Positions 1-64,000 of a DNA stretch of 64,000 bases are shown here, piece after piece. The notes beneath the pieces are model-generated. The model was not told the DNA's origin. It saw nothing but the letters and a program-made list of their open reading frames with translations, and did not search any database. This stretch comes from Loxodes magnus (lineage: Eukaryota > Ciliophora > Karyorelictea > Loxodida > Loxodidae). Positions within the stretch are counted from its first letter, which is position 1, and each line of letters begins with the position of its first letter. The DNA lies in assembly GCA_946699065.1 (NCBI GenBank), contig CAMPDV010001091.1:1-64000 (forward strand), given 5' to 3'. Both the position numbers and the translations under genes were made by a program.

Positions 1-3000
1 TATAATTATGAACCTGAAAATTTCTAAATTAATTCATATTCAAGTGATTACTGATGACAATATAATCGTTGCAATACATATTTTTATTCCCTTTATGTAA
101 ACATGTGTTCATATTTGCATCGTTTATTATTTCTAAATCGTTTTAGAGAATGAATTCTTAGAATCTATTTGTATTGTCATAGTTGTTAATAGGGTTATCC
201 CCAAAGTCTTATAGTAGAGCGTTTAAAATCTCCTAATAATATATGTGAGTTGTCAGGAAAAGAATTAAGGAATACATTTATATATTCATATGCTTCGTCT
301 TTTATATTTTCACTCTTGCTGTTATCTGGCATGTAACAAGATGTTATGAATATATTATCTAGTTTGATTGTAACGAACCTCTCTTGAGCTAATTGTTATA
401 TGCTATTCTATTCCGTGCTATTAAGTTAATCTCTAACAATTAAGCAAACTCCTCCTCCTTTTCCTGAGTTCTTGAAATAGGTCCTATATCCATTAATAAG
501 TATTGGAGGATAGTCTTATTTTTATCACGTTTCATTAATTGAGAAAATGTCTAAGTCATTATTTCGTATAAATTCTTCCACGTTTAATTGCTTGCTTCCA
601 ATTCCATTTATGTTAATATGTCCAAGCTTTATTATGCCTATCTCTCTTTGCTTATCGATAGGCATCTTTATTTCTTAATTCCCAAATTCTTGTTTGCATT
701 AATATGGTTATTCTACATTGTTCTCTACACCTCCTTTGAGTCTTAGTTATTTTTAAAGGACAATATAGTTAATTCTAAAATCAGTTTATAGCAGCGTTTT
801 AACTATATAATTTCCGTTTTTTATAAATCGATGAATTTCTTATGATGAAGTCAAAACTCCTCCTTTTATTCCTGGCTCATAAATACAGAGAATCTTCTCA
901 TTTTGATGAATTTATATGTTAAGCAATTTGGGGCAATTTTTGATGTATTACCTGTAACTTATTATAATGAATAATGTCAATGAATCGTACTTTTCGCTCA
1001 ATTTATTATCGATTTTTTATATCTATTTCATTTCCATCACACGTAGCATGGTTTAGTTTGCAAGATAAAGTTATAAATCTATTGCCTACTAAAGTGAAAA
1101 GATTCTAATTTCATCATTTATTGGACCTTATAAATTGAATTAGTTAGGCGTCTTTAAATTCGTATTTATTTAAAATCTCTTCAATATTTATTTCATTAAA
1201 CCCAAATTTTGACTATTTTAAGTTTAAAGTGTCTTGGTTAAATTTGGCATCTCTTCAACTTCTCTTTCCAAATTTTGTTTGGCTACCCCAAATCATCACA
1301 TATGATGTCTAGATATTTGAATTTTCTAAAATTTCAATCTGCTAATCTTCTTAAATTTAATCACTTAAAAATGTTTATGTTGAAGCATTTCATTTTATTT
1401 CTTTCAAGTAAGATTGAGTTTTAACATCTTATTATTTTCTCTATATTTCTGAAATTTATGCATAGACATTTAGCTTCAATTCTACTTGATGCTCATAATC
1501 CTGCATGAGTTAAACATATAATCCGTTTAATTCATTATATTACTCTTACAGTTTTCCATTATTCTATTTTGTGATTTATAGTTCTTGTTAAGAAGCAACT
1601 AGCTAATGATTGGTAACTACTGTTATTGTTCCTTCATCCTTAGCATTGATAGAATTTTAAGTCTAAATAACCTAATTCTTTAACTCCATGATTCTTGTCT
1701 AACTATAATTGCTTATTAATTTCCCTTTTTTTGTTCATGTTCAAGCATCTTTGCTATTAATCTTTAAACAGGTTTGTGTTTCCTTTTCTCAAAACTATTT
1801 TTATTAACACGAGACAAGCCTTTAGTAGACACTCTATATATCTTAATTGATAAATTATTTGTTTAATTTATCATATAAATTCTACAACTTTGTATACTTC
1901 AATTCAACGAAGTCGCACTAGGTAGATTGATCTAAGAATAATAAGTCTGTATCAGTAGTCGAATCTAAAGTCGATATAGTTGCTTGATAAATTTAGTTGC
2001 TGAATTGAATTTCAATTTATGTTTATTCATTCTATGCCTGAGGAGTGATTGTTTATGTAAAAATGCTTTTGACTGATTTGGCATATTTATTTTTTTGAAA
2101 GCTCAGTTCCTATGATATTTAATAATTCTCATTTTGTAATAATTAACACTAAGCCTGTTGTTACTGGCAATTGACTGTGAATTAATGTACCTTTTAGTCG
2201 ATCTGATCTATTTTGCTTAATAAATGAAAATTTTCACCTTTGAGATTTTAGTTAAGAGTTTCTACCTCCCTAAGATGTTATTATACTTCATTATGTCTCA
2301 AATTACATTTATTCAATTCAGCTTGAATGAATTAAATTTGAGTAACCAAGTTGTTTATAATATTTTGGGCTTCTTACTTGGAAGCAAGTATTGCCTCATC
2401 TTGTAGTTTAAATGATTGTGTCATGTTCATTAGCTCCTCGCTAAGCATAGCTTGTTTTACTATACTTTGCTATTAAGTCTAAGTGAGAAGTTAACTCTAA
2501 GTTTCCAATTCTTATATTTAAGTTAAAGAAAGATCAGTATTCGTTTATATTGATTATTATTTATTTGTAGCATTATTTACAAATTATTTGGACTAAAGCA
2601 TTAACTATTTCTACTAATTATCAAACCTTAAGATTTAATTTTTATTCTAGATTTTCTTAATTTACTTTTGAGCTTTAAATAAATAATTTTGGTATTATTC
2701 TAAGTGTATTTTATATTGTGATTTAATGTTTAAAGTTTCTTTATTGTGTTACTCATATATATGTATTAGCTTTTCTTACAGAGAATTATTTTTAGTTATG
2801 AGTTTTTAAATTCGAAATTTAAGATTTTTGCTTTCACTTAGCCTTTAATTTTCAAAAGTATTTGCCTCTTCTATCTTGCTTTAAATTTATATTTTAATTT
2901 TGCAATTTTTTCTTAAAGTTACGCATTTTAAATCTCAAGATCAGTTAAGTATGTAATATCAAACTTCTCTTAGTAATCAGTTTAAATGTCTATTGAAATC

Positions 3001-3050
3001 TGCTATTGATTTTTTATGTTATTTTGTGTATTTGGTTTTATTATATTTTA
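1..3050 (-). mobile_element. LINE family 1, copy 1 (5' part, enters from left edge)
   Basis: This is the reverse complement of the LINE at 40,915-47,433, covering its coiled-coil N-terminal region and most of the endonuclease domain. The rest of the element lies beyond the left edge of the window. In the first 120 bases compared by eye there is one difference from the other copy, so the two are recent duplicates. The similarity fades near 3,050, which corresponds to about 41,360 in the other copy, so roughly the first 150 codons are missing or replaced. The endonuclease frame holds the Asn-Glu-Thr-Trp motif with Trp written TGA, and many TAA and TAG codons read as Gln. There is no sign of strong decay in the part visible here. 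Confidence 0.88.
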
Positions 3051-4439: not shown

Positions 4440-5295
4440 TTCTAACAAGATTATCCCCTATTTTTCATTCTTATCTATTTTACTTTTTATACTCAATTTT
4501 TTTGATTATGAATGAAAGATTATGCAAAACTTTAAATCTAAAAATTTATTTCTAAATAGAAAAATTTAGTCCTATAATTTTAAATTTAGTTATAACTAGC
4601 ATAGTACTTAACTTTCAATCTAAATATATTTTAAAATACAATCTATATTTTTATCTTAAAAGATAATTTTATTTATTCCAATTTTCTGAAATATTAATGA
4701 TATTACTCTTATTTAATTAGAAAATTACTAGTAAAATAATAATTTAACTCTAGATATTTCTTCGAGGTTAGGTTATATGACAACAATCGCAACATGAAAA
4801 TTCATTTACTCTTGTAGAATCTCTCCTCAACTTTTGAGACTCCTCAGGAGCAAAAGCGAATGAAAGAGTAGAAACTTCTTTATTAGTATTATCTCTTTAT
4901 GATACCATAGTTTAAGCTTTAAAATAAATTCCTTGTGGAAGTTATTCATTAATAGTTTTCATTCACTGCTTCATTTCTTAGTTGTATTTACTTCATTTTC
5001 CGCAAGGAATACATGGAGATATGAAAATTGGAACGATAAGTTAACCTATAACTACTAATCAAAACACAAATTAACAATTATTACTATGAGGTTTTACATC
5101 TCTATCATAAAGTTTATCTATTATTTTCAATGCTAGTCTGTTATTCCTTTTTCGATCAATTATTGTTGTATTTACTATAAATCTCTTTATTCAAATTCAT
5201 TATAAAACCCTAACGAGTTTATCCGTAAAGTGTTAGTATTTATGCTTCTCTTTCAGTAGGTTTTATTTTTTCGACTTGTAGGATGAACTATTTCC
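4440..5295 (-). pseudogene. broken inverted duplicate of the 13.1 kb Cys-rich gene
   Basis: The reverse complement aligns with 13,090-13,960, covering the coding region and about 300 bases of its downstream flank. A one-base loss early in the reading frame shifts the conserved part, the start codon is not kept, and the C-terminal Cys clusters are partly changed. Because the 3' flank is copied too, this was a DNA segment duplication rather than a processed copy. The stretch encoding Glu-Val-Ser-Thr-Leu-Ser-Phe-Ala is still almost identical to the source. It is most likely a non-functional relic. Confidence 0.75.
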
Positions 5296-5299
5296 ATAT

Positions 5300-6300
5300 T
5301 TAAAATGATTTATAAAGAAAAAGGAATTTAAGATATAAACAAATAACGATATAGAGATAAACTAGAAGCAAATATAAAATGTTTAACTTTAATAATGCAC
5401 GTTAAGACTTAAATAAGAATGAACTTAAAGATAAAAAAGCTAAACTAAATAAAATAAATCAAAATATCTATATTCGGCTAGGGAAATTTTAGCAAGATAT
5501 TACTTTAAAAATCTTAAGGTAAGATTTTAAAATTATAAAAGATTAATTAAAATAAGCTGAATCATAGTAACAGCATCTTAAATTAGCTAATGTCTGAAAC
5601 GTAAATTAAGTAACAAATCAAATTTGTATATATCTATTAAAAAAGATAAGTGTTATAATAATAAAAATAGAAGTTTATGCATATATACAATTTCTTAAGA
5701 AATGAACTATAAAAGTTTATACATTTTTATTAGATTTTTCTCAAATATATCAATTCTTTGTACTGACTTTTGTGAAATTCATTTTTTTTTAAATAAATTA
5801 TTTAAATTCTAAATTTAAAAATTATAGAAATATAGTTAATTTTAATAGGTAAAATCTTAAAAAAATACTAATTTGCTTGGAAAATATCATAATAATAATT
5901 TTTTGTTCAAAGACTAAAAAATAAATAACTGGACAATCTATATTTCCAAGAAATTAGTTTATAAGTTTTTTCATATATTTCATATTGAGCCATGTATAAA
6001 ATATCAAGTTAGCTTTCTTAAATTTAAATAATTTAGCAAAATAAATTATATTTAGTAAATTTAGAGATAAAAATCCATAAAAAATAAGCAAATAATTAAC
6101 TATTAAAAAATGTAGCTAGACATAAATAAAAAATAATTTTGAATTTTTTACTAAATAATTATGAAATTAAAATGTTTGACTACTTTTAAAACTTAGAACA
6201 AATTTTAAAAAATATATAGAACATTCATATCTAGAAAAAAACACTTGAACTTTGTATTATTTATTTTTTGATATAGCATAGAAAATTAAAATTTCTTTAT
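5300..6300. other. AT-rich stretch with no recognised gene
   Basis: This is low-complexity A+T-rich sequence. I see no conserved frame, hairpin tail or repeat shared with other parts of the window. Open frames are meaningless here because all three stop codons can be sense in this genome. Confidence 0.6.
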
Positions 6301-6375
6301 GATAATAATAATAATAATATACTTAATTAAAGTGTTTGTGGTTTTGAGGTGTTTCAACCTCATTTCCACTGACAT
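6301..6375 (-). repeat. 3' hairpin tail and (TTA)n end of the 6.4 kb element
   Basis: On the minus strand GTGG and CCAC enclose an inner stem GAGGT / ACCTC with loop TGAAAC. A short TTTAATT follows and then a TTA microsatellite. The terminal TGA of the ORF lies in the 5' side of this structure. Hairpin tails followed by a simple repeat are typical of LINE-type retroposons. Confidence 0.65.
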
Positions 6376-12755: not shown

Positions 12756-13088
12756 TATATTAATCACTACAAAATATTTTAAATTACATAATTTACATTT
12801 CAGACATCAATAAATTTAAGATGCTGTTATTATAAAAAACTTTTATATTAACTTATCTATTATAATTTTTCTTTCTTACTCTTAGGATTATTAAAGTCTT
12901 ATCTAGTCTACATTTTTTCTAGCTGACAAAATGAGTTTTTAAATTACTTAGCTTATTTAATTTATTTTAGCAGTTTAAAGTCTTAGCTAGCATTATTAAA
13001 GTTAAGCAATGCTTATTAGCTTAAATTTATATAGTTATAATTTTAATTTATTAATTACATTTTTTTTTCTTTATAAATTGATTTAAAT

Positions 13089-13649
13089 ATGGGTCAAGTA
13101 CACCCTACCAAATCTAAAAAAATCAATCCTACTGAGGGAGAACGCTTAATACTAACATTTTACGGATAAACTTGTTGTGGTTAGTCGAATGGATTTGAGG
13201 AACGAGATTTATATTAAATACCACAATTATTAAGCGAAAAAGGAATAACAGACTAGTAATGAAGGTATTGGATAGAACTTTACGATAGAGATGTAAAATC
13301 TCATAGTAATAATTGTTGTTGTATGTTTTGGATAGTAGTTGCTTGGATGTTTATTATTCCAGGATTCTTTATTTCATGTTGTCCATGAGGCAACTGTAGT
13401 AAATATAACTAAGGAATGAAACAGTGGATGTATACAATTAACCAATAGCTTCCACAAGGAATGTATGTCAAAGCTTAAACAATGGTAGCATTAAGAGATA
13501 AATCTTATGAAGAAGTTTCTACTCTTTCATTCGCTTTAACTCCTGGAGAGTCTCAGAAATTGTGAAATGAGCCTATAAGAGTGAACGAATGTTCATGTTG
13601 CGACTGTTGTCATACAACTTGCCCCTCGGAGAATTCTCTAGTGATTTGA
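13089..13649 (+). CDS. small Cys-rich membrane-associated protein, possibly ERF4/GOLGA7-like (186 aa)
   Basis: The frame starts at the ATG at 13,089 and ends at TGA 13,647-13,649. Two internal TGA codons fall where Trp fits (CCPWGN and KLWNEP), and TAA/TAG read as Gln. Visible parts are an N-terminal CCG motif, a cluster NNCCC, one hydrophobic segment (about residues 80-98, Trp/Val/Ile/Phe-rich) and a Cys-rich C-terminus (CSCCDCC). The pattern of a leading 'ekGIT..qW' motif, a membrane-facing middle and 'iNq.lPqGmy' loosely resembles the ERF4/Golgin-7 family of palmitoyltransferase cofactors. That is a weak family guess. The Cys clusters could be lipidated. A broken inverted duplicate lies at 4.4-5.3 kb. 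It is the clearest compact host gene in the left half. Confidence 0.72.
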
Positions 13650-14393
13650 AAAAACAAAAGAATAAAAATATTATTTTACTAGTAATTTTCAAGTTAAATA
13701 AGAGTAATATCATTAATATTTTAAGAAACTAAATTAAATTATCTTCTAAAATAAAAAATACTCATTTTATTTCAAATTATAATTAGATTGAAAGTTAAGT
13801 TAAGTGTTAGTTATAACTAAGTTTTAAAAATTATAGGACTAAATGCTCTATTTATAACTAAATTTTAAATTTTGCTTAATCTTAATTCATAAAAAAGAAA
13901 ATTGAGTATAGAAGGAAAATAGATAAGAATGAAAAATAGAATTTAATCTTCTTTAAGACATAGATAATCTTAACTAAATCATTAAGTTAATACCTTCTCT
14001 AAGATAATAAGCATGCTTTTCTATTTTTAATCAATATTTTGAAAATATTTATTTATATATCTACAAAATTGTTTTTATGAAAAGTCTAAGAAACAAAAAA
14101 AATCTTTGATGATGAAAATTATTAAGTTGATCAAATGCAGAAGAAGTAAAAAGATAAAGATTGAAGTGTATTTAAGTAAGCAATGAGATATAATATCGAT
14201 GAGCTATTATTTAGAAATATACTTTAATTTAGCTTTAGTCTAAGAATTAAATAAATATTCGTAAATTAAATAACTTAGTTAGAAACTATTTGAATAAAGT
14301 AATATCTTTATCTCTTTTACTATTACTTATCTCCTTCTTAAAGACTTGTTAAGGATATAATTTCTAAGGATTTGTTTAGGAATAATTAATATA

Positions 14394-32890: not shown

Positions 32891-35300
32891 AAAAGATTCA
32901 AAAAGATAATTTACTTAGATTTCAAGAATTTTTGATATAGAATGATATAGAAATATTAAACGATAAGAGCGCTAATACATGTATACACAAAGGTACTGGA
33001 TTTAGTTACTGCAATGATTATATTGTTATAAATAATCATTTAAACAGTAATTAATTTGCTAATTTTCAGGCACATATGATAGTTTATTTACTGATCATAT
33101 TCCTTTCAAAATTGAATTCATTTCTAATATACCCATTCATATGGAAAAGTAAATATAATAAAAATACAAAATAAGTAGACTTTAAGATCCAATTGATAGG
33201 AAGAAATATCAAGATTCTTTCCTTTGATCTTATATTGAATTCTTTCAAATTGATAGTAATAATTTAGAAGGATAATATTTATGCATAAAAAACAATATAG
33301 AAGATAATGCAGACCTAATTTTAGCATCATTTATTCCGGGTACAAAATATAATATACTTACTAGAGATTTAACAAGCAAATATATTTAGGAAAAAAGAGC
33401 AAATTCGTTGTATTAAAAGCTCATGTATAATTTGGAAGAGTCAATTAATAAGTTATCAATTTTCATTAAACAGCTATATGACTTTGAAAAAACTTCAAAC
33501 ATCACTTATGAAGATTTAGAAAAAACAAGGTCAAAAAAAATTTCGACTTCTTAATGAAAATGCAAAAGATAAATTTTCTTAAGCTAAGAAAATTCTTAAT
33601 CCTAGAATAAAAAACTAAATGAATTTTAACTAATAAAAATAAGATTAATTCGTTAACTAATGGGAGAACTTTGTATTTAATAAATATGAAAAACTCGTTT
33701 AATAGGAAATTGATATAAGTAACAAAATAATTGATTAAATTTACGAAATATTGAAAATATATAAAAGAAATAACCTTCACATTACTAAGGATTTAATCTC
33801 TTTATTATTGAGGAAATTAAAGAAATTATAAAAGAAATTCCAAATGGAAAAGTGGCAGGTCCAGATTGAATTAAAGGAGAACTGTTGAAATATGGAGGCG
33901 ATTATTTAACTTTAATACTTCATTCCTTCTTGAATAATATGCTTAGACTTGGAAAAATTCCTGACGGGCTCAATGATCAATAATCATCCCGATTTAAAAA
34001 AATGGAAACAAAGATGATTGAAAGAATTGACGACCAATCTCTCTTAATAACACTATACAGAAATTATATGATAGTATATTCTCAAAAAGATTATATTAGC
34101 TAATATATTAAAGGAGCTTAATCCATAGGAGTTAAATGGGATTTTTAAAATAGAAATAGACTACTCATTATGTTTGAGTAATATAATAAATAACAGATTT
34201 ATTTCGAAAGTAAGCCAAAGGAAAAACAAAACTAATAGCAACTTTGATGATGTGGAAAAAATGTTCGACTTAATAGAAAGAAGATTGCTTTTTCATCAAC
34301 TGAAACGAGTCAAGTTACCATTAGGATTGATATTAGCATTTGAATCTTTCTACAAAAATCTAAGTTCTTAATTCCTTATAGATGGAAACTTTTCTAAAAA
34401 CTTAAATATAGCAATGAAGTAATGTAAGGAAGTTCGCATGGACCAGTGTTAGTGCTATTGTATTATGATATTGTTATTAGATATATAGAAAGTAAAGAAA
34501 AAAGATTGAATTCCAACGTAACAGCTTCAATAATAGTTTTGTTTGTAGAGGATGGGCAGATGACTTAATACTCCTTTCAAAATCTAAAAAGAACATGTAG
34601 ATATTAATAGATGAAGCAAATAGAGCTTTTAATTGAACTTAGCTTAAAATAAATGCCCCCAAATGCGAATCAATTCAGTTTTTAAAAAAACATAGAAGAA
34701 AAGAGGAAAATTTAAACTTGAAGATTGGAAATCAGGTTATCGCTCAAAAGTAGCAAGTTTCATATTTAGGAGTAACTCTGCATTAAAAAAAGGACTTAAT
34801 TAATCACTGCAAATAGGTCTCAATTAAATATCTGTCTGCTATGAAGAAGGCAGTATTTACTTTATCAAGATATAAAAATGTGACACCTTGATACTTTAAG
34901 ACTTTGTGTAGAATTTTCACGCTTCCTAAAGCAGAATATGGAGGAGAATTAGTACCTTGGACTATCTAAAATGGAATTACTGCAACATTAAATAAAATTG
35001 ATAAAAGCATGAGACTGATAGCAAGAAAAGCCTTATAAGCACCTGAAAATACTTTTAATGATTCTTGTTATATAGATCTTAACTGAATGCCATTTAAACA
35101 TATTATGGCTCTGAGATTTTTTTAATTTTTACAAAATACGATAAGAAAGTATTAATAATCCTTTATCAACAATAGGATCTCTTTTTAAGAATAACTGATA
35201 AGAAGTTTATTAATATAGAGACTAAGTAGCACTATCTGAATATTATGAAATAGATATTAATAATTAGGAATATAATAGTAGTATTAAATATGTATATAAA

Positions 35301-40914: not shown

Positions 40915-43900
40915 ATGGACATGCACAAAAATTCGCAAGATTTCTTTCTTAGCGACTCTTCTTTATCTAAAAATAAAGAAGCTGCTTTCTAAAACGATGA
41001 ACATAGGCAGATGCTCAACTACTTTTATGAAATAGACATGGAATCGCTGCAACTTAAATCCGTTGATAATATCATGAAATTACTAAGAAATTTGCTAAAG
41101 AGCTGCAGTTAATGCCAAATTAATAGATATCTTCGAATTCCACTAAGACAGCTTGGCAATTCTTTAAAACGTGGACATTAATTGAAGACTAATCTCAAAT
41201 ATAGGAAATATACTTATAGGTAAAAAGACTAGCTTGTTACTTCAACCTCTACGATGGTATCTAAAATATCCAATATACAGTAAGATACTTTAGATACTTA
41301 GGATATTTAAGATATTTCTTTAATTAAAAACTAAAATTAAATTTAAATACAAAATTAATAAGAGACTATAAAAATTCAACAATTCAATACAAAAAATAAC
41401 ATTAAAATTCAATAGCAGATTTCAATAGACATTTAAACTGATTACTAAGAGAAGTTTGATATTACATACTTAACTGATCTTGAGATTTAAAATGCGTAAC
41501 TTTAAGAAAAAATTGCAAAATTAAAATATAAAATTTAAAGCAAGATAGAAGAGGCAAATACTTTTGAAAATTAAAGGCTAAGTGAAAGCAAAAATCTTAA
41601 ATTTCGAATTTAAAAACTCATAACTAAAAATAATTCTCTGTAAGAAAAGCTAATACATATATATGAGTAACACAATAAAGAAACTTTAAACATTAAATCA
41701 CAATATAAAATACACTTAGAATAATACCAAAATTATTTATTTAAAGCTCAAAAGTAAATTAAGAAAATCTAGAATAAAAATTAAATCTTAAGGTTTGATA
41801 ATTAGTAGAAATAGTTAATGCTTTAGTCCAAATAATTTGTAAATAATGCTACAAATAAATAATAATCAATATAAACGAATACTGATCTTTCTTTAACTTA
41901 AATATAAGAATTGGAAACTTAGAGTTAACTTCTCACTTAGACTTAATAGGAAAGTATAGTAAAACAAGTTATGCTTAGTGAGGAGCTAATGAACATGACA
42001 CAATCATTTAAACTACAAGATGAGGCAATACTTGCTTCCAAGTAAGAAGCCCAAAATATTATAAACAACTTGGTTACTCAAATTTAATTCATTCAAGCTG
42101 AATTGAGTAAATGTAATTTGAGACATAATGAAGTATAATAACATCTTAGGGAGGTAGAAACTCTTAACTAAAATCTCAAAGGTTAAAATTTTCATTTATT
42201 AAGCAAAATAGATCAGATTGACTAAAAGGTACATTCACTCACAGTCAATTGCCAGTAACAACAGGCTTAATGTTAATTATTACAAAATGAGAATTATTAA
42301 ATATCATAGGAACTGAGCTTTCAAAAAAATAAATATGCCAAATCAGTCAAAAGCCTTTTTACATAAACAATCACTCCTCAGGCATAGAATGAATAAACAT
42401 AAATTGAAATTCAATTCAGCAACTAAATTTCTCAAGAAACTATATCGACTTTAGATTCAACTACTGGTACAGACTTATTATTCTTAGATCAATCTACCTA
42501 GTGCGACTTCGTTGAATTGAAGTATACAAAGTTGTAGAATTTATATGATAAATTAAACAAATAATTTATCAATTAAGATATATAGAGTGTCTACTAAAGG
42601 CTTGTCTCGTGTTAATAAAAATAGTTTTGAGAAAAGGAAACACAAACCTGTTTAAAAATTAATAGCAAAGATGCTTGAACATGAACAGAAAAAGGGAAAT
42701 TAATAAGCAATTATAGTTAGACAAGAATCATGGAGTTAAAGAATTAGGTTATTTAAACTTAAAATTCTATCAAGGCTAAGGATGAAGGAACAATAACAGT
42801 AGTTACCAATCATTAGCTAGTTGCTTCTTAACAAGAACTATAAATCACAAAATAGAATAATGGAAAACTGTAAGAGTAATATAATGAATTAAACGGATTA
42901 TATGTTTAACTCATGCAGGATTATGAGCATCAAGTAGAATTGAAGCTAAATGTTTATGCATAAATTTCAGAAATATAGAGAAAATAATAAGATGTTAAAA
43001 CTCAATCTTACTTGAAAGAAATAAAATGAAACGCTACAACATAAACAATTTTAATTGATTAAATTTAAGAAGATTAGCAGATTGAAATTTTAGAAAATTC
43101 AAATATCTAGACATCATATGTGATGAATTGGGATAGCCAAACAAAATTTGGAAAGAGAAGTTGAAGAGATGCCAAATTTAACCAAGACACTTTAAACTTA
43201 AAATAGTCAAAATTTGGGTTTAATGAAGTAAATATTGAAGAGATTTTAAATAAATACGAATTTAAAGACGCCTAACTAATTCAATTTATAAGGTCCAATA
43301 AATGATGAAATTAGAATCTTTTCACTTTAGTAGGCAATAGATTTATAACTTTATCTTGCAAATTAAACCATGCTACGTGTGATGGAAATGAAATAAATAT
43401 AAAAATCGATAATAAATTGAGCGAAAAGTACGATTCATTAACATTATTCATTATAATAAGTTACAGGTAATATATCAAAAATTGCCCCAAATTGCTTAAC
43501 ATATAAATTCATCAAAATGAGAAGATTCTCTGTATTTATGAGCCAGGAATAAAAGGAGGAGTTTTGACTTCATCATAAGAAATTCATCGATTTATAAAAA
43601 ACGGAAATTATATAGTTAAAACGCTGCTATAAACCGATTTTAGAATTAACTATATTGTCCTTTAAAAATAACTAAGACTCAAAGGAGGTGTAGAGAACAA
43701 TGTAGAATAACCATATTAATGCAAACAAGAATTTGGGAATTAAGAAATAAAGATGCCAATCGATAAGCAAAGAGAGATAGGCATAATAAAGCTTGGACAT
43801 ATTAACATAAATGGAATTGGAAGCAAGCAATTAAACGTGGAAGAATTTATACGAAATAATGACTTAGACATTTTCTCAATTAATGAAACGTGATAAAAAT

Positions 43901-46900
43901 AAGACTATCCTCCAATACTTATTAATGGATATAGGACCTATTTCAAGAACTCAGGAAAAGGAGGAGGAGTTTGCTTAATTGTTAGAGATTAACTTAATAG
44001 CACGGAATAGAATAGCATATAACAATTAGCTCAAGAGAGGTTCGTTACAATCAAACTAGATAATATATTCATAACATCTTGTTACATGCCAGATAACAGC
44101 AAGAGTGAAAATATAAAAGACGAAGCATATGAATATATAAATGTATTCCTTAATTCTTTTCCTGACAACTCACATATATTATTAGGAGATTTTAACGCAC
44201 TACTATAAGGCTTTGGGGATAACCCTATTAACAACTATGACAATACAAATAGATTCTAAGAATTCATTCTTTAAAACGATTTAGAAATAATAAACGATGC
44301 AAATATGAACACATGTTTACATAAAGGGAATAAAAATATGTATTGTAACGATTATATTGTCATCAGTAATCACTTGAATATGAATTAATTTAGAAATTTT
44401 CAGGTTCATAATTATAGCTTATTTTCAGATCATATTCCATTCACAGTTGAATTTGTATACCATACTCATCTTCAAACTGAAAAAATAAAAGTGAGAAAGT
44501 ACAAAATAAGTAGACTGTAGGATCCTATTGATAGATTTATCTATTAGAATTCATTCAAAGATTAAGTAGAAGTATTCTTCCTAATTGATAGAGATAACTT
44601 AGAAGATTAATACACTTATATTAGAGACTGCATTTAGAACAATGCAGATTAAGTTTTAGGCTCATTTATCCCAGACCCGAAGTATAATAGACTTCCTAAG
44701 GACCTCACATAAAAATATATCGAAGCAAAGAGAGCAAATTAATTGTACAAAGAAACTTTAGCATATATAGGGAGGAATAACTAAGAAATCATTGATCTTC
44801 ACTAAAGAGCGAACACATTATGAAAAAGCTTTTAGCATCATTTATGAAAATTTAAAAAACAAAAGGCCAAAAACAGATTCCTACTCCTCAATGAAACCAC
44901 AAAAGATATGTTTTCTTAAGCAAAGAAAATACTTAACCCTAGACAAAGAAATTTGATGAATTTTAATAAGGAATTGAAGGACTAATTTGTAGAAACATGG
45001 GAAAATTAGGTATTTAGCAAGCATTCGAATTTAACTAACCAATAGATTGAACTAAGTAACTAGAAAATAGATGCAATTTATGAAAATAACATAGAAATTC
45101 AAAATTAACCCTTTTCTTACTTATAAAATTTCGATCCTTTTACAATAGAAGAGATTACCTAACTTATAAGTCTAATTCCTAATGGTAAAGCAGCAGGGCC
45201 AGATGGAATAAAAGGAGAACTGCTAAAATATGCAGGATATTATCTAGCGTTGATGCTTCATTCTTTTATAAATAACATGCTTAGAATTGGAAGGATTCCT
45301 GAAGAGCTTAATACTTCTATCATAATCCCCATTTTCAAAAAAGGAAGTAAAGACGATTGAAAAAACTGACGCCCTATTTCCCTTATCAATACTATTTTGA
45401 AATTATATGATAAGGCCCTTACGAAGAGACTCTACTCAATAATTTATGAAAGACAGTTAATCCACTCAAGCTAAATGGGGTTTATGAAGAACAAATAAAC
45501 GACCTAATAAATATGAGTGATCCAATAAATCATAGATCTTTATCGAAAACAAGCGAAAGGAAAAACTAAATTGATTGCAACTTTAATTGACGTAGAGAAA
45601 ATGTTTGATTCTATTGAAAGAAGAATTCTTTTTAAATAACTAAGAAGAGTCAAATTACCACTAGGTCTCATCTTGGCTTTAGAATCATTTTATAATAACT
45701 TAACTACTTCCTTTATTATAGACGGAGCAAATTCTAAGAAATTGAAATTTAGCAATGGAGTGATGTAAGGAAGTTCGCATGGACCTGTGCTTGCATTATT
45801 ATACTATGACATTGTCATTAGACATATAGAAAACAAAGGAGAAATATTAGGATTCAGATGTGCTAATTTTAAGAATAGGTTCACTTGTAGAGGTTGAGCT
45901 GACGATTTAATCCTATTATCGAACTCATAAAAAAATATGTAGTCACTTATTAATGAAGCAAACTCCATTTTCAATTAGACATTTCTTAAAATAAATGTCT
46001 CCAAATGCGAAACGATATAGTTTTTAAAAAAGAAAAGCAAAGAAACAAAACTAGACTTAAAAATAGGAGACCAAGCAATAATTTAGAAACAGCAAGTCAC
46101 ATATTTAGGGGTGATCCTTCACCAAAAGAAGAATCTAATTAACCATTGCAAATACGTTGCTGCAAACTATCTTTCAGCAATTAAAAAGGCAGTATTTGCA
46201 TTATCAAGATATAGAAACGTAACACCTTGAAACTTCAAAATGCTTTGTAGACTGTTCACGCTTCCTAAAGCAGAATACGGTGGGGACTTAATACCTTGGA
46301 CTGTTCAGTATGGAATAAATGGAATCTTGAACAGAATTGAAAAGAGCATGAGGTTAATAGCCAGAAAAGCCTTTTAATCAGCAGGAAATACGTTTAATGA
46401 ATCATGCTTTGTAGACCTCAACTGGATGCCATTCAAACACATGATGGCTCTTAAGTATTTCAGGTTTTTCTTTAAGATTAGAAATGAAAGCTAAAATCAA
46501 CCTTAATCATCTATTGGAATATTGTTTGAGAACAATTATAAAGAGGGATATCAATATTATGATGAAGTTTAGAAACTGGCCTCATTTTATAAAATAGAAA
46601 TTGATAATAAAGAGCACAATAACAACTTAACTTAATTCAGTAAATATGTGTAGGCATAAATATAAAAGACATATTTTGAATTAGCTCTTTCAAGATTCAG
46701 CAGAATGCCTACTGCATAAATATATACAGAACAATTTTAAAACCTAAGATAATTCCCCAAAATAACATACACAAAATTAAACAAAAAATATTTGAAAGAA
46801 ATAATTTGCATCTATAAGATTAGAAGCCAGTCTTACGCATTTCGAAAGACTCTGAAAGATCGAAATTATATTATTGAAAACCCTTTTTGTATATGCGGAG

Positions 46901-47433
46901 AATATGACACTCTCCAACATGTAATGGAATGTATATATTACATTGATATAAGAGAATGATTGGTCTCCAAAATTGGTTAATGTGATATTTTGAAACTAAT
47001 AAGTTACGATTAACTATATATAAACTCTTTTTCTAAGAAAAAAATAGAAATGGTGGATGAATAAATAAAAATATTCATTCAAATGTTTATCAAAAGGAGG
47101 CGAGAAATTCTATAACAAGAGAAAGAAGAAGAGCAATACGAGAAATAATAAAAAGAAGCAAATCTAAGAATAGAAAATTTTAATGAAGAGAATGAAGAAT
47201 AATAAAAACAAGAAAACAAAGAATAAGATGTCCAAAAAAATTAGATGAAAAATGATGAGGAAGAAGAAGATTGGAACGAAGAGGAAAACGATAGCGAAGA
47301 TGAAGAAGAAGAAGATTGACAACAGAAAATAGAAAAAAATGAAAGTTAGTTTGAAAATGAACAAGAAAGGAGATACTTAGAAGAAAAAAAAAACCTAAAC
47401 TAGAAAATTAGTTCTGAAGAGCAATAAACTTGA
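40915..47433 (+). CDS. LINE family 1, intact copy 2: fused ORF1-endonuclease-reverse transcriptase (2172 aa)
   Basis: One frame runs from the ATG at 40,915 to TGA 47,431-47,433 when TAA/TAG are Gln and internal TGA is Trp. Residues 1 to about 830 are Gln-rich coiled coil. Next comes a block conserved in copy 3 (RFITLSCKLNHATCDGN; YDSLTLFIIISYR). The endonuclease at about 955-1185 has HININGIGSK, INETW, LLGDFNALLQG and SDHIPF. The reverse transcriptase has GKAAGPDGIKGELL near 1424, IPIFKKGSKDDWKNWRPISL, ATLIDVEKMFDSI, GSSHGP and GWADDLILL with Asp at 1663 and 1664. A CICGEYDTLQHVMEC motif follows at 1992 and an acidic Lys/Glu tail closes the protein. The motif order is that of APE-type LINEs such as the Jockey group. 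It looks capable of activity. Fusion of the ORF1 part to ORF2 without a stop is notable. Confidence 0.9.
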
Positions 47434-59499: not shown

Positions 59500-62400
59500 A
59501 TGAAAGCTGTAAACTACATTTATGTGTTGCTTTTCTTTATTTTTACTTAGAAGGATGGGCTTGCATCTGCTTAGTATTATTACGCTTAAATAACTGATTT
59601 TTTTAGTACGTAAGAATTAGACCAGAGCTATTTAAAAGAAACCTCGTTTTCAAATGATTTAGGTTATAGTCCTTCCTATAACCAAATTTCTACTTCTCTA
59701 ACATTTTGGATATAGAATAGTTGTATTGACTTAGAGTAGAGAGATCTCATTTCTTTTAATGACTAAGGCTAGCGATAAATAACCATTACTCTTTAGTAGA
59801 ATCAAGACAAGCAACATACTCTACAATTCTGTTACCAGGATTAAAACGGAAATCTTCAAGAATGTACTGAGTTCAGCTTAGATAAAACTTGCGGCTAGTG
59901 AATTTTTGTTGGCTTAAAGTATAAAGAGATAGAGAATCAAGAAGGTAGTGTGGTGCTTTGCATTATTTAGATATATAACGGATTTATTTAAAACTGCGAA
60001 ACGAAGAATTTAAATACATATGAGTTTAAAAGCTTTGGAGATGATTCAGTGATGTACATAGGAAGTCTAAACAACAAAGGAGTGAAAGGAAAAATCTTAT
60101 AGCTTTTATTTTGATATTATAACTCGTAATAAATCTCGGAAAACTTCTAAGAAGCTATCTCATTAATACCATGTGATTAGTACTGTGGAGGATACTGTAA
60201 AGGGCCTGAAATTTCTGATTGCTAAGATTTTTAGTTTTACAGTCTATACTCAGAGAAATTTGCCTATAAAAGAATTCAAGGCAACGATAACTTGAATATT
60301 TAAATAATTTACTTAGAATAAATTTTAATGCTAAAGTACTCTCCTAACTATATCAGCTTCTCAGCTTGAATTTAGAACAGTTGTAATTTAGGCAGTGATT
60401 AACAAAATATTTGGTCACTGAGATATGCATATCTAGTGAACTTTTTATAATATGAAGTTCAAGATGAGATGTATTCATTTTAAATAATAGGCTACAATTA
60501 ATAAGATGGCTCTGAAGATATCTTACATGACTAAAGCTTAATAAATTGCACGACTTGGATTTTTATTGGAAATTCTTTCGATAAACTTAATCAGAAATTG
60601 GATCTATATGTCTATATTCCTAGTATGGGAGACAGAACGATGCATAAAAAGAGTATTAGCATTCTAATTGATTGAACGGAAGAATAATAAATATCCCTGT
60701 CTGATGGAAATTATTTTAGTGGGTATGTCCTTTAATCTAGAATCTATCTATTTAATTCCTATTTTGGACAGGAATAATTTCTCCAAGTAGCTAAGTTTGA
60801 AACTCCTTGTCATCGAGGATCATTTTGTACTGAATGTCCATCTCCTGAAATTCAAAGTTGCTTTCACTCAAATTTTCTTGAACTTAATGATATATCATTA
60901 AAGCCATAATCTACTGTTCAGATTTAAAATCATTAATTCTCAGATTTTTCATATGATCCTAGTCAAAATTCAAACGAAAGATGGGCACTTAGCTTTTGAA
61001 TAAAAAATTATGGAACTGACGATGAGGCAAAATTTTTTTTTTCAGATAATCGATTTACTTTTTGTTGGCAGAGTTGCAAACATGAAAAGATCTTTATAAA
61101 ATAATAATTAATAGTACATATAAATAAAGTATGATTCAAACTTAAAATAATAGGAGATATTCATAACTAGTAATGATTATATGCTTTATCTCATTCAAAA
61201 AACAGATAGGTATTAATGATTCTTTTTATCCTTATCGGTTAGTAATAATTTATAGGTCTTTGCTTGTTCAACTGACTAGGTTAATCCAGAAGAGTTGTAG
61301 TGTAATAGAACTGAATAATGAAATTGAATAGTTTTTGAAAATTATTTCTAATTGGAGTGAACTGATATGTACAGTTAGCCTCCTTATTTTAACGGACTTG
61401 TTCTTCAGCCAAGATTTTATATTAATAATTAAAAATTTACTGAATAAGATTTAATTTAAATTGTCAAAAACGAAAATCCTTGTATAGCTGCAGGATAATC
61501 CAATTGTACCTCTCCTGATATATGAGAAAGCATAAAGCCGCCTCACTTAAGTGGTACCTAAGATGAGCAAATAATAGAAAGCAGTGATTAATAAGATGCC
61601 TTAAATTACATGTTTGCAGAAATGGCTTATGATCCTTCAAAATATTCTGTCTAAAGTTACAGTCTTTCATTCTGATTCTAAAATAAGGATTTGAATTACA
61701 GACTAATCAGATAAAGTAGAAATCTATTAGTTTCAGTTTGAAGAATAATTTGTCAAATAACATAACCAATTTAATAGTCAATTACTATATAAATAAAAGC
61801 CTTAGATTTATAACGGTCAACAGTATAAATAGTACTAGCTTCATTCTCATCTAAAGAGTCGTATAGTTATACAGTTTCGAATATGAAATGAACCTTGTTT
61901 TCTTTTGCAATCAACTTGGAAAATTCATAAGCTTAAATATGCTTATCTGAGTTTATGCTAAACTAAAAAGTGAACTGTGATAATTAAACAGCTACTTTTT
62001 TATAATTTAGTGCAGATAGCTGAATAATACTAGGAGCTAGTCAAAAATAATATAACTTTATAGGAGAGTTATATCAGTTTAAGTTTTATACTTATGAGAC
62101 TTTTCTTTAATAATCAGACACATAAGATTTGTTTGATAATAATGAATGCTGGAAAAACTGCAAGCTAAGCACTTGTAATGGTCCTCATATAAGTAACTGC
62201 CTTTTAATCTGTCATTAAAGTTGTGCTACTTGCTTTGGAAAGAATCAAAACTAGTGCTCAAGTTGTTATAATGGGTTCTATTTATAATAATCGTCATCCA
62301 CTTGCTAGCCATGCTAAAGCTAAATCTAGAACTGCAAATAATGTAGTGAAAACAATGGAAAGATAACATGTGAGGTATGTGATTAAGGTCTTATTTTAGA

Positions 62401-64000
62401 TCAAAATACAGGTTTATGCAAGCCATGTAGCAATTATATAAACTAATGTTCCTAATGCGTCTAGAATAACAACTAAGACACGATTTGCACTTAATGTGCT
62501 AATAGTTTGTATATATAAAATAACGAATGTCTATGTAAGATGTAATATTGCGATTAATGTGATATTTCTGGTAGTAAATGCTTGAGATGCTAGGATGAAT
62601 ATTACTGGAATTAGTAGAAACAAATTTGCGAATCTTGCTCGTTAGTAAATAAAGATTGTGTCAAGTGCCTTGATTAGTCCAAATGTCTTTATTGTAGAAA
62701 TCCTTTAAAGCTGGCTAATAATCAGTGTGTAGTATAATGTCCAGCTGATTAATAAGATTCTGATGGAGATTCCATATGCAAATCTTGCTAGAGTCAGATT
62801 CCTTCATGTTTACAATGCGATGAAAAAGGAGAAAAATGCTTCAAGTGTTAAAAAGATATGGTATTATCAAATGGTAAATGTGTTCAGTGTAGTTAGATTT
62901 TTCCTAGCTGCCTAGAATGTGAATCTGAAAGCTGTGTTAAATGCGACGCTCTTCTAGTTTTATTTAGAAATTAATGCCTAGAAAAATGTCCTAAGGGTAC
63001 ATTCTAAGCTAAAGATAAATGTGTAGAATGCAGGTAGAATATCATGAATTGCGAAGAATGTAGCGACCAAGGAACAGAGTGCAAGTTATGCGAAAATAAG
63101 TTCTACATAGAGAATAATAAATGCGTAGCTTGCTCTTCCCTTTATCTTAATTGTGAAGAGTGTTCTAATAATTTATGCACTAAATGTTAGAAACCCTATA
63201 AACTATTAGAATCAGCTAGCAAATGCTTTCTTAAATGTCCAGTAGCTTATCAAGATTACGCTGGAGAAGGATATTGTAAACTATGCAACTAAAGTATCCC
63301 ATTTTGTGAAAAATGCGATAAAGAAGAATTTAAATGCAAAAAGTGCTCTAATAATTATATGTATTTTCCTTAATTCAAATCATGCATCTAAAATCTAAGT
63401 ACGATAGAAGAAAACGAAGAGAGCTCTAAAGTAATACCTCCCAAATCTATTAAAGATTTGAATTTAACAAGTTATAAAGAACAATTAGCCTATTTTATTT
63501 AAAACTCTCGTTCGGTTGTTATTCCCATAACTATTTCAGCTGGAATGATAGCTTTAATTGCAAGCTCTGGCTCATCCTCCACTTGCTGATAACTCTGGAT
63601 TGCTTATTGTCTAGATGAAATGATTGTCTGCACAGGCATGGTTTCAATTATGATGCCGAAAATATTCCAAGCCTTATATTTAGTTAATTAGGATTTACAA
63701 TAATTGACCCTCGATGCTATAGGCCTAGATCTAAACTCAAACTAAAAGTCACAAAGAGACATTTGATACAACTTACAAATCTAAGGAATTAACTCAGCAA
63801 CATTCTTTTCAAATGGATTGGTAGAAATTCTTAACTTTCTGCTTTGCAGTTTCTTATTTATATTTATTTGATTAGCTAGAGACTGGAAATTTCGATTCAA
63901 GTAATATATGCAATAAGTCTACATAAATTATAAATATTCCACCTTCATTAGACTTATCTTAAATATGTCTTTAGGAACTGTGACTTATGCACTAATTTAA
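59500..64000 (+). CDS. large secreted/membrane protein with four LamG-like modules and Cys-rich repeats (partial)
   Basis: The ATG at 59,500 is followed by a signal peptide (YIYVLLFFIFT...LASA). Four related modules of about 200 residues follow. Each has a strand motif with Trp: LTFWIQN (TGG, codon 70), FSAWIQN (TGA, 290), LSFWIKN (TGA, 500) and LSFWFQN (TGA, 61,673). Each module ends in a Cys-Pro/Gly element such as CTECPSPEI. They resemble LamG/pentraxin-type jelly rolls. From about 62,140 to 63,390 there are roughly 20 CxxC-type repeats of furin-like or growth-factor-receptor style. Near 63,500 and 63,820 hydrophobic segments suggest membrane helices. A small intron at 61,129-61,153 (25 nt, GTATG...AATAG) restores the frame. 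The alternative is 16 nt at 61,114-61,129. The frame continues past the right edge. It is probably a ciliate surface receptor or adhesion protein. Confidence 0.82.
61129..61153 (+). other. candidate 25-nt intron
   Basis: It begins GTATG and ends AATAG, and its removal joins ...VHINK to EIFITSNDYM in one frame for the rest of the 64-kb-edge gene. A 16-nt alternative (61,114-61,129, GTACA...ATAAAG) also fixes the frame. Tiny introns are usual in ciliates. Confidence 0.6.

Follow-up and report, generated by a model that had tools for sequence, protein, structure and literature searches.

Karyorelict ciliates, Loxodes among them, use NCBI genetic code table 27, in which UGA is the only stop codon and also encodes tryptophan (Trp), and whether a given UGA is read as Trp or as stop depends on its distance from the mRNA 3′ end (PMC11441545). 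The related code of Condylostoma magnum (table 28) assigns the same sense meanings, and there all three codons UAA, UAG and UGA can stop (PMC4967479). A tRNA-Trp with a 4-bp anticodon stem is mentioned for Loxodes, citing Swart et al. (PMC13092985, PMC12005148), and the effect of such a stem is stated for other species (PMC13092985, PMC12153298).

Here we analyze the first 64,000 nucleotides of contig CAMPDV010001091.1 from the Loxodes magnus assembly GCA_946699065.1 (the window), and in particular a gene with four related modules (M1 to M4) that begins near the window's end, the repeat-module gene. A first-pass annotation, made from the sequence alone, had concluded from these modules that TGA encodes Trp and that TAA and TAG encode glutamine (Gln). 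Both the observation and its interpretation are correct, and the code is already published for karyorelicts, Loxodes included. We put at about 0.96 the probability that the window belongs to the somatic (macronuclear, MAC) genome of a karyorelict using table 27, in which UAA and UAG encode Gln through cognate tRNAs and TGA is both Trp and stop. Nothing that we tested differs from the described table 27 systems (Loxodes magnus, PMC11441545; Parduczia sp., PMC4967479), with which this genome shares the Gln meaning of TAA and TAG, the double meaning of TGA, short introns and genome size. The genome containing the window comprises 705,730,643 bases, and the published L. magnus MAC assembly 706 Mbp (PMC11441545).

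Trp and Gln codons in the modules and in conserved families

Among the 2,082 codons of the repeat-module gene are 17 TGAs in frame ahead of its end, 11 TGG, 123 TAA, 55 TAG, 37 CAA and 17 CAG. All four modules place a Trp codon at one shared position (Trp column 1, Table 1), written once as TGG and three times as TGA. Two codons further on, M1, M2 and M4 carry Gln as TAG or TAA and M3 carries Lys. Direct reading of the codons confirmed both of these assignments of the first-pass annotation. The motif that it gave for the four modules, S-x-S/T-F-W-I/F-Q/K-N, holds in its common Trp position but not in the residue before it, as M2 reads S-F-S-A-W-I-Q-N, with Ala in place of Phe.

With X substituted for TGA, TAA and TAG alike, three MAFFT modes placed the four Trp codons in a single column. 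When the 13 TGAs that the aligned modules contain were placed at random, a column with a TGG and at least three TGAs arose in 6 of 200,000 trials. In a second column, the pairing of an M1 TGA with an M2 TGG is stable across the three masked alignments. An M4 TGA joins that column only in the alignment made under code 27, in which M1, M2 and M4 but not M3 are included, and M3 gave no clear alignment there in the masked runs. Where M1 has one further TGA (60112), the other three modules all have Tyr, which would fit an aromatic residue.

Kinase domains from the same genome as the window were used as a second sample (136 listed, 70 read). With the Trp position left free in the search, the Trp site of the DxWSxG motif was found in 60 of the 70 loci and is occupied by TGG in 34, TGA in 23, TTT in two and TAT in one, and by TAA or TAG in none. 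We also made a leave-one-out alignment of 56 non-redundant domains (14 of the 70 removed at 90% identity), which contain 54 TGAs, informative only where they fall in conserved columns. Of the TGA cells in columns with a consensus of at least 70%, 24 of 25 are at Trp, and with a consensus of at least 50%, 24 of 27; the corresponding counts for TGG are 58 of 58 and 58 of 64. TGA is therefore present at conserved Trp sites, the opposite of what the first-pass annotation had named as evidence against its reading. The columns of TAA and TAG in the kinases roughly track the Glu/Lys spectrum of CAA and CAG, Gln being no consensus residue there. Paralogue pairs within the window show TGA/TGG exchanges but other pairs as well, and we therefore do not count them as evidence.

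These counts bear on the idea that the repeat-module gene is a pseudogene, in which case its internal TGAs would be inactivating stops and the agreement at Trp column 1 would be fortuitous. The 17 TGAs ahead of the candidate stop fit that idea, as do the short frames, the only ones that table 6 yields. Against it, TGA aligns with TGG at two columns, the first of which random placement so rarely matched. As a general explanation it is also opposed by the kinase sample, in which TGA and TGG exchange at Trp columns in the same way. We consider a pseudogene very improbable.

Codons for Gln were followed in tubulin and eRF1. At five Gln columns of seven beta-tubulin paralogues, TAA and TAG fill 20 of 35 cells (CAA 14, TAA 11, TAG 9, CAG 1). 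Compared with the Gln residues of the solved mammalian eRF1 4d5n, eRF1 copy 1 has TAA in 7 of 13 cells, TAG in 2 of 6 and CAA in 2 of 7; when the copy 1 alignment is transferred to copy 2, the counts are 8 of 15 for TAA and 1 of 5 for TAG.

The same two families show where genes end. An unambiguous tail ending at TGA was observed in nine of the 11 tubulin regions fetched, and in the remaining two the first codon of the kind met at a plausible end is TGA too. Both copies of eRF1, 436 codons each, end in TGA. TAA or TAG thus closes none of the 11 well-supported ends (nine tubulin, two eRF1), a set that includes close or recent paralogues and does not amount to 11 independent cases. The use of TAA or TAG as a real stop, also named beforehand as contrary evidence, did not appear.

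A Condylostoma-type code, with TAA and TAG as stops as well, would give identical sense meanings, and UAA has reportedly been suggested as a stop for a small minority of karyorelict transcripts. C. magnum and the karyorelict Parduczia were moreover described together (PMC4967479). All three codons can stop in C. magnum, whereas 11 of 11 well-supported ends here are TGA, a count still compatible with rare use of the other two, and UGA is named as the only stop in PMC11441545. We judge this code improbable for the window, if a shade less so than a pseudogene. The reverse alternative, TGA as Trp only, as in table 4, with gene ends set in some other way, is the least probable of the three. The module data alone need no stop meaning, but the nine clear tubulin ends and the two eRF1 ends carry TGA at the point where proteins of their family end, and TGA is also met in both of the tubulin regions whose end is less clear.

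The eRF1 genes (L002 and L003) share a contig (G000 C196) and are separated by about 35 kb. Tubulin is present in many copies, with 150 Tubulin_C matches (G000 C64, C237, C134, C441, C1299 and others), many lower-scoring ones being on C134, C441 and C1299. The locus that scores highest for PF03463, the N-domain family of eRF1 (L001, G000 C2:1762690-1763037), showed no NIKS in its minus frames or in the stretch of its plus frames examined; it is perhaps a Pelota-type protein.

tRNA genes and eRF1 residues

We searched for tRNA genes with a pattern open to the anticodons UUA, CUA, UCA and CCA, in forms with a long and a short D-loop. The long-D-loop form gave 184 matches against six for a reversed control, the matches listed carrying anticodon UUA. 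With a short D-loop, the pattern found two tRNAs each for CUA and CCA. The tRNAs with anticodons UUA and CUA probably carry Gln, and UAA and UAG would then be read as Gln by cognate tRNAs. The UUA tRNA forms a tandem array on C214 with units of about 275 bases.

The first-pass annotation had also pointed to a UGA-reading tRNA-Trp, with anticodon CCA or UCA. A tRNA-Trp(CCA) pattern matched 165 times at up to two mismatches, and two forms with positions 27:43 unpaired have 124 exact matches in the genome; among the matches of this kind listed, 48 are on C67 and the others on C148. They stand in tandem arrays (G000 C67:482300-491368 and C148:155441 onward), the repeat units measuring about 187 and 241 bases. 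Full copies were read for both forms, one of the first and two of the second. The top pair of the anticodon stem is A.C (L112) or U.C (L113), both non-standard in the Rfam alignment, leaving a 4-bp stem. Folding four of the tRNAs on their own gave no cloverleaves and was set aside in favor of the Rfam alignment. No tRNA-Trp(UCA) was found in the genome by one exact pattern. Of the two anticodons anticipated, CCA was found, in arrays with a 4-bp stem, and UCA was not found by that one pattern.

These genes share the CCA anticodon and a mismatch at the top of the anticodon stem with other 4-bp tRNA-Trp systems. The U.C top pair is named for Amoebophrya and called identical to that of C. magnum (PMC12005148); one array here carries U.C and the second A.C, whereas the single copies L068 and L069 keep 5 bp. 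The likeness to C. magnum (PMC4967479) extends to the sense meanings, the UAA and UAG tRNAs, a tRNA-Trp(CCA) with no UCA form found and a tRNA-Sec. In the mechanism that we envisage, the shortened stem would act at UGA as the literature describes, and the distance of a UGA from the poly(A) tail would decide, again following the literature, whether it means Trp or stop.

For eRF1 a modified form had likewise been anticipated. The protein keeps NIKS, and as read from its alignment with 4d5n it has Ala at 55, Ala at 70 (human numbering) and RAQ before NIKS. The list of motifs compared was taken from PMC12153298. In Blastocrithidia residue 70 of eRF1 is Gly rather than Ala and has been linked to UGA readthrough (PMC12153298); the Ala at this position is no more than suggestive.

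The kinase Trp columns, the tubulin and eRF1 ends, the Gln columns and the tRNA genes agree with the table 27 reading at which the first-pass annotation had arrived. Several observations weigh against that reading. In the modules, columns shared with TGG hold only four of the 13 TGAs, the other nine being in uninformative and mostly poorly aligned columns, and a degenerate motif scan of the DNA was at chance (93 matches, 92.37 expected), so that the evidence for column 1 is that of protein alignment. Among the kinases, motif search found no DxWSxG in 10 of the 70 loci, TAA occupies a Trp-consensus column in one cell (two among all 70 loci), and one TGA cell lies at a Leu column in the leave-one-out alignment. 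There is no in-frame TGA within eRF1 itself. The 20 codons before the candidate stop of the repeat-module gene hold four TAA and two TAG, and UAA is depleted just before stops according to PMC11441545. ARAGORN labels the CUA tRNA as Pyl, not Gln. The single tRNA-Trp(CCA) copies L068 and L069 (G000 C110), among the minority of tRNA-Trp matches beyond the 124 that were read, have an ordinary 5-bp stem, though with irregular T-arms.

Structure of the repeat-module gene and other features of the window

The repeat-module gene starts on the plus strand with an ATG at 59500, and its candidate stop is the TGA at 65759 of the contig, beyond the end of the window (Table 1). Because table 27 closes no frame, an open frame under that table is no evidence for a gene, and we picked the reading frame from the similarity of the modules. 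The frame of M4 is one off that of M1 to M3, which points to a short intron within 61114-61153; either of two candidates would shift the frame by +1, and the exon 1 edge in Table 1 assumes the 16-nt choice. Both candidate lengths agree with published Loxodes introns, which have a mode of 17 bp, are 25 bp or shorter in 93% of cases and are negligibly often below 16 bp (PMC11441545).

Table 1. Coordinates of exons, intron region, repeats and diagnostic codons of the repeat-module gene.
Feature	Position in window	Strand	Content or basis
Exon 1 (538 codons)	59500..61113	+	Hydrophobic N-terminus, M1, M2, first part of M3
Candidate short intron region	61114..61153	+	GT...AG; candidates 61114-61129 (16 nt) and 61129-61153 (25 nt)
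Exon 2	61130..64000, continuing past window end to candidate TGA 65759	+	Rest of M3, M4, Cys-rich repeats, then hydrophobic membrane-like part and charged tail (last two by eye)
Cys-rich repeats, CxxC type, perhaps furin-like	62138..63436	+	By eye; weak R-spondin-1 matches, E 0.13-0.30
Trp column 1, M1: TGG	59707..59709	+	Codon read directly; masked MAFFT alignments
Trp column 1, M2: TGA	60367..60369	+	Codon read directly; masked MAFFT alignments
Trp column 1, M3: TGA	60997..60999	+	Codon read directly; masked MAFFT alignments
Trp column 1, M4: TGA	61673..61675	+	Codon read directly; masked MAFFT alignments
Gln two codons past Trp, M1: TAG	59713..59715	+	Codon read directly
Gln two codons past Trp, M2: TAG	60373	+	Codon read directly
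Lys two codons past Trp, M3: AAA	61003	+	Codon read directly
Gln two codons past Trp, M4: TAA	61679	+	Codon read directly
Trp column 2, M1: TGA	59899..59901	+	Masked alignments and code-27 alignment
Trp column 2, M2: TGG	60556..60558	+	Masked alignments and code-27 alignment
Trp column 2, M4: TGA	61889..61891	+	Code-27 alignment; masked alignments did not recover it

A Pfam search of the repeat-module gene gave no match above the cut-off. The fold of M1, predicted together with M2 and M4, is mostly beta at a mean predicted local distance difference test (pLDDT) score of 49, and we leave it unnamed because the fold search gave nothing at E ≤ 0.001. The gene probably encodes an ordinary large ciliate membrane protein, made up of four modules rich in beta structure, the Cys-rich repeats and a membrane segment.

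Elsewhere in the window, Pfam searches of ten of the longer table 6 frames found no family. A reverse transcriptase gene lies at 44251-46620 (Pfam RVT_1, E 1e-31), and a TGA immediately precedes the ADD of its reverse transcriptase motif. A diverged copy at 32917-35277, with 70.8% DNA identity, gave no Pfam match. Positions 1-3032 and 41386-44416 are inverted copies of each other, 3.0 kb long and with 98.6% identity. TGA codons are present at 13647, at 47431 and, on the minus strand, at 6360, the three positions cited as stops by the first-pass annotation and the weakest of its evidence. The TGA at 13647 sits in a second inverted pair (12784-13953 and 4444-5613, 75.7% identical), which shows no clear coding frame by synonymous change.

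Possible further meaning of UGA

The genome also holds three genes for tRNA-Sec that exceed the Rfam cut-off and have the anticodon UCA (G000; L126, C30:829388-829473; L127, C6:804625-804710; L128, C6:164898-164983). Because of these genes, UGA may have selenocysteine (Sec) as a third meaning. A partial literature search found no tRNA-Sec named in Loxodes, and we claim no novelty for it. A figure legend gives UGA 'codon triality' for Condylostoma and Parduczia (PMC4967479), and UGA is read as both Trp and Sec in Blastocrithidia (PMC12153298). The likeness to Blastocrithidia, C. magnum and Parduczia lies in tRNA-Sec(UCA) genes beside a UGA that encodes Trp.

A broader proposal, which we offer tentatively and regard as rather doubtful, is that UGA in this one genome means Trp, stop and selenocysteine, and that its reading as Trp is driven by dosage. 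Amplified arrays of tRNA-Trp with a broken stem (at least 124 copies) would compete with an eRF1 weakened at its UGA-reading surface (E55A, S70A, TASNIKS to RAQNIKS), such that termination would occur only near the mRNA end. If this were true, its new part would be the balance between tRNA dosage and eRF1, as triality itself has been published before, for Condylostoma and Parduczia.

The recovery of a published ambiguous code from the raw sequence of one gene has value as a control. The anatomy of the tRNA genes and of eRF1 provides testable pieces for how one codon can be Trp in one place and stop in another.

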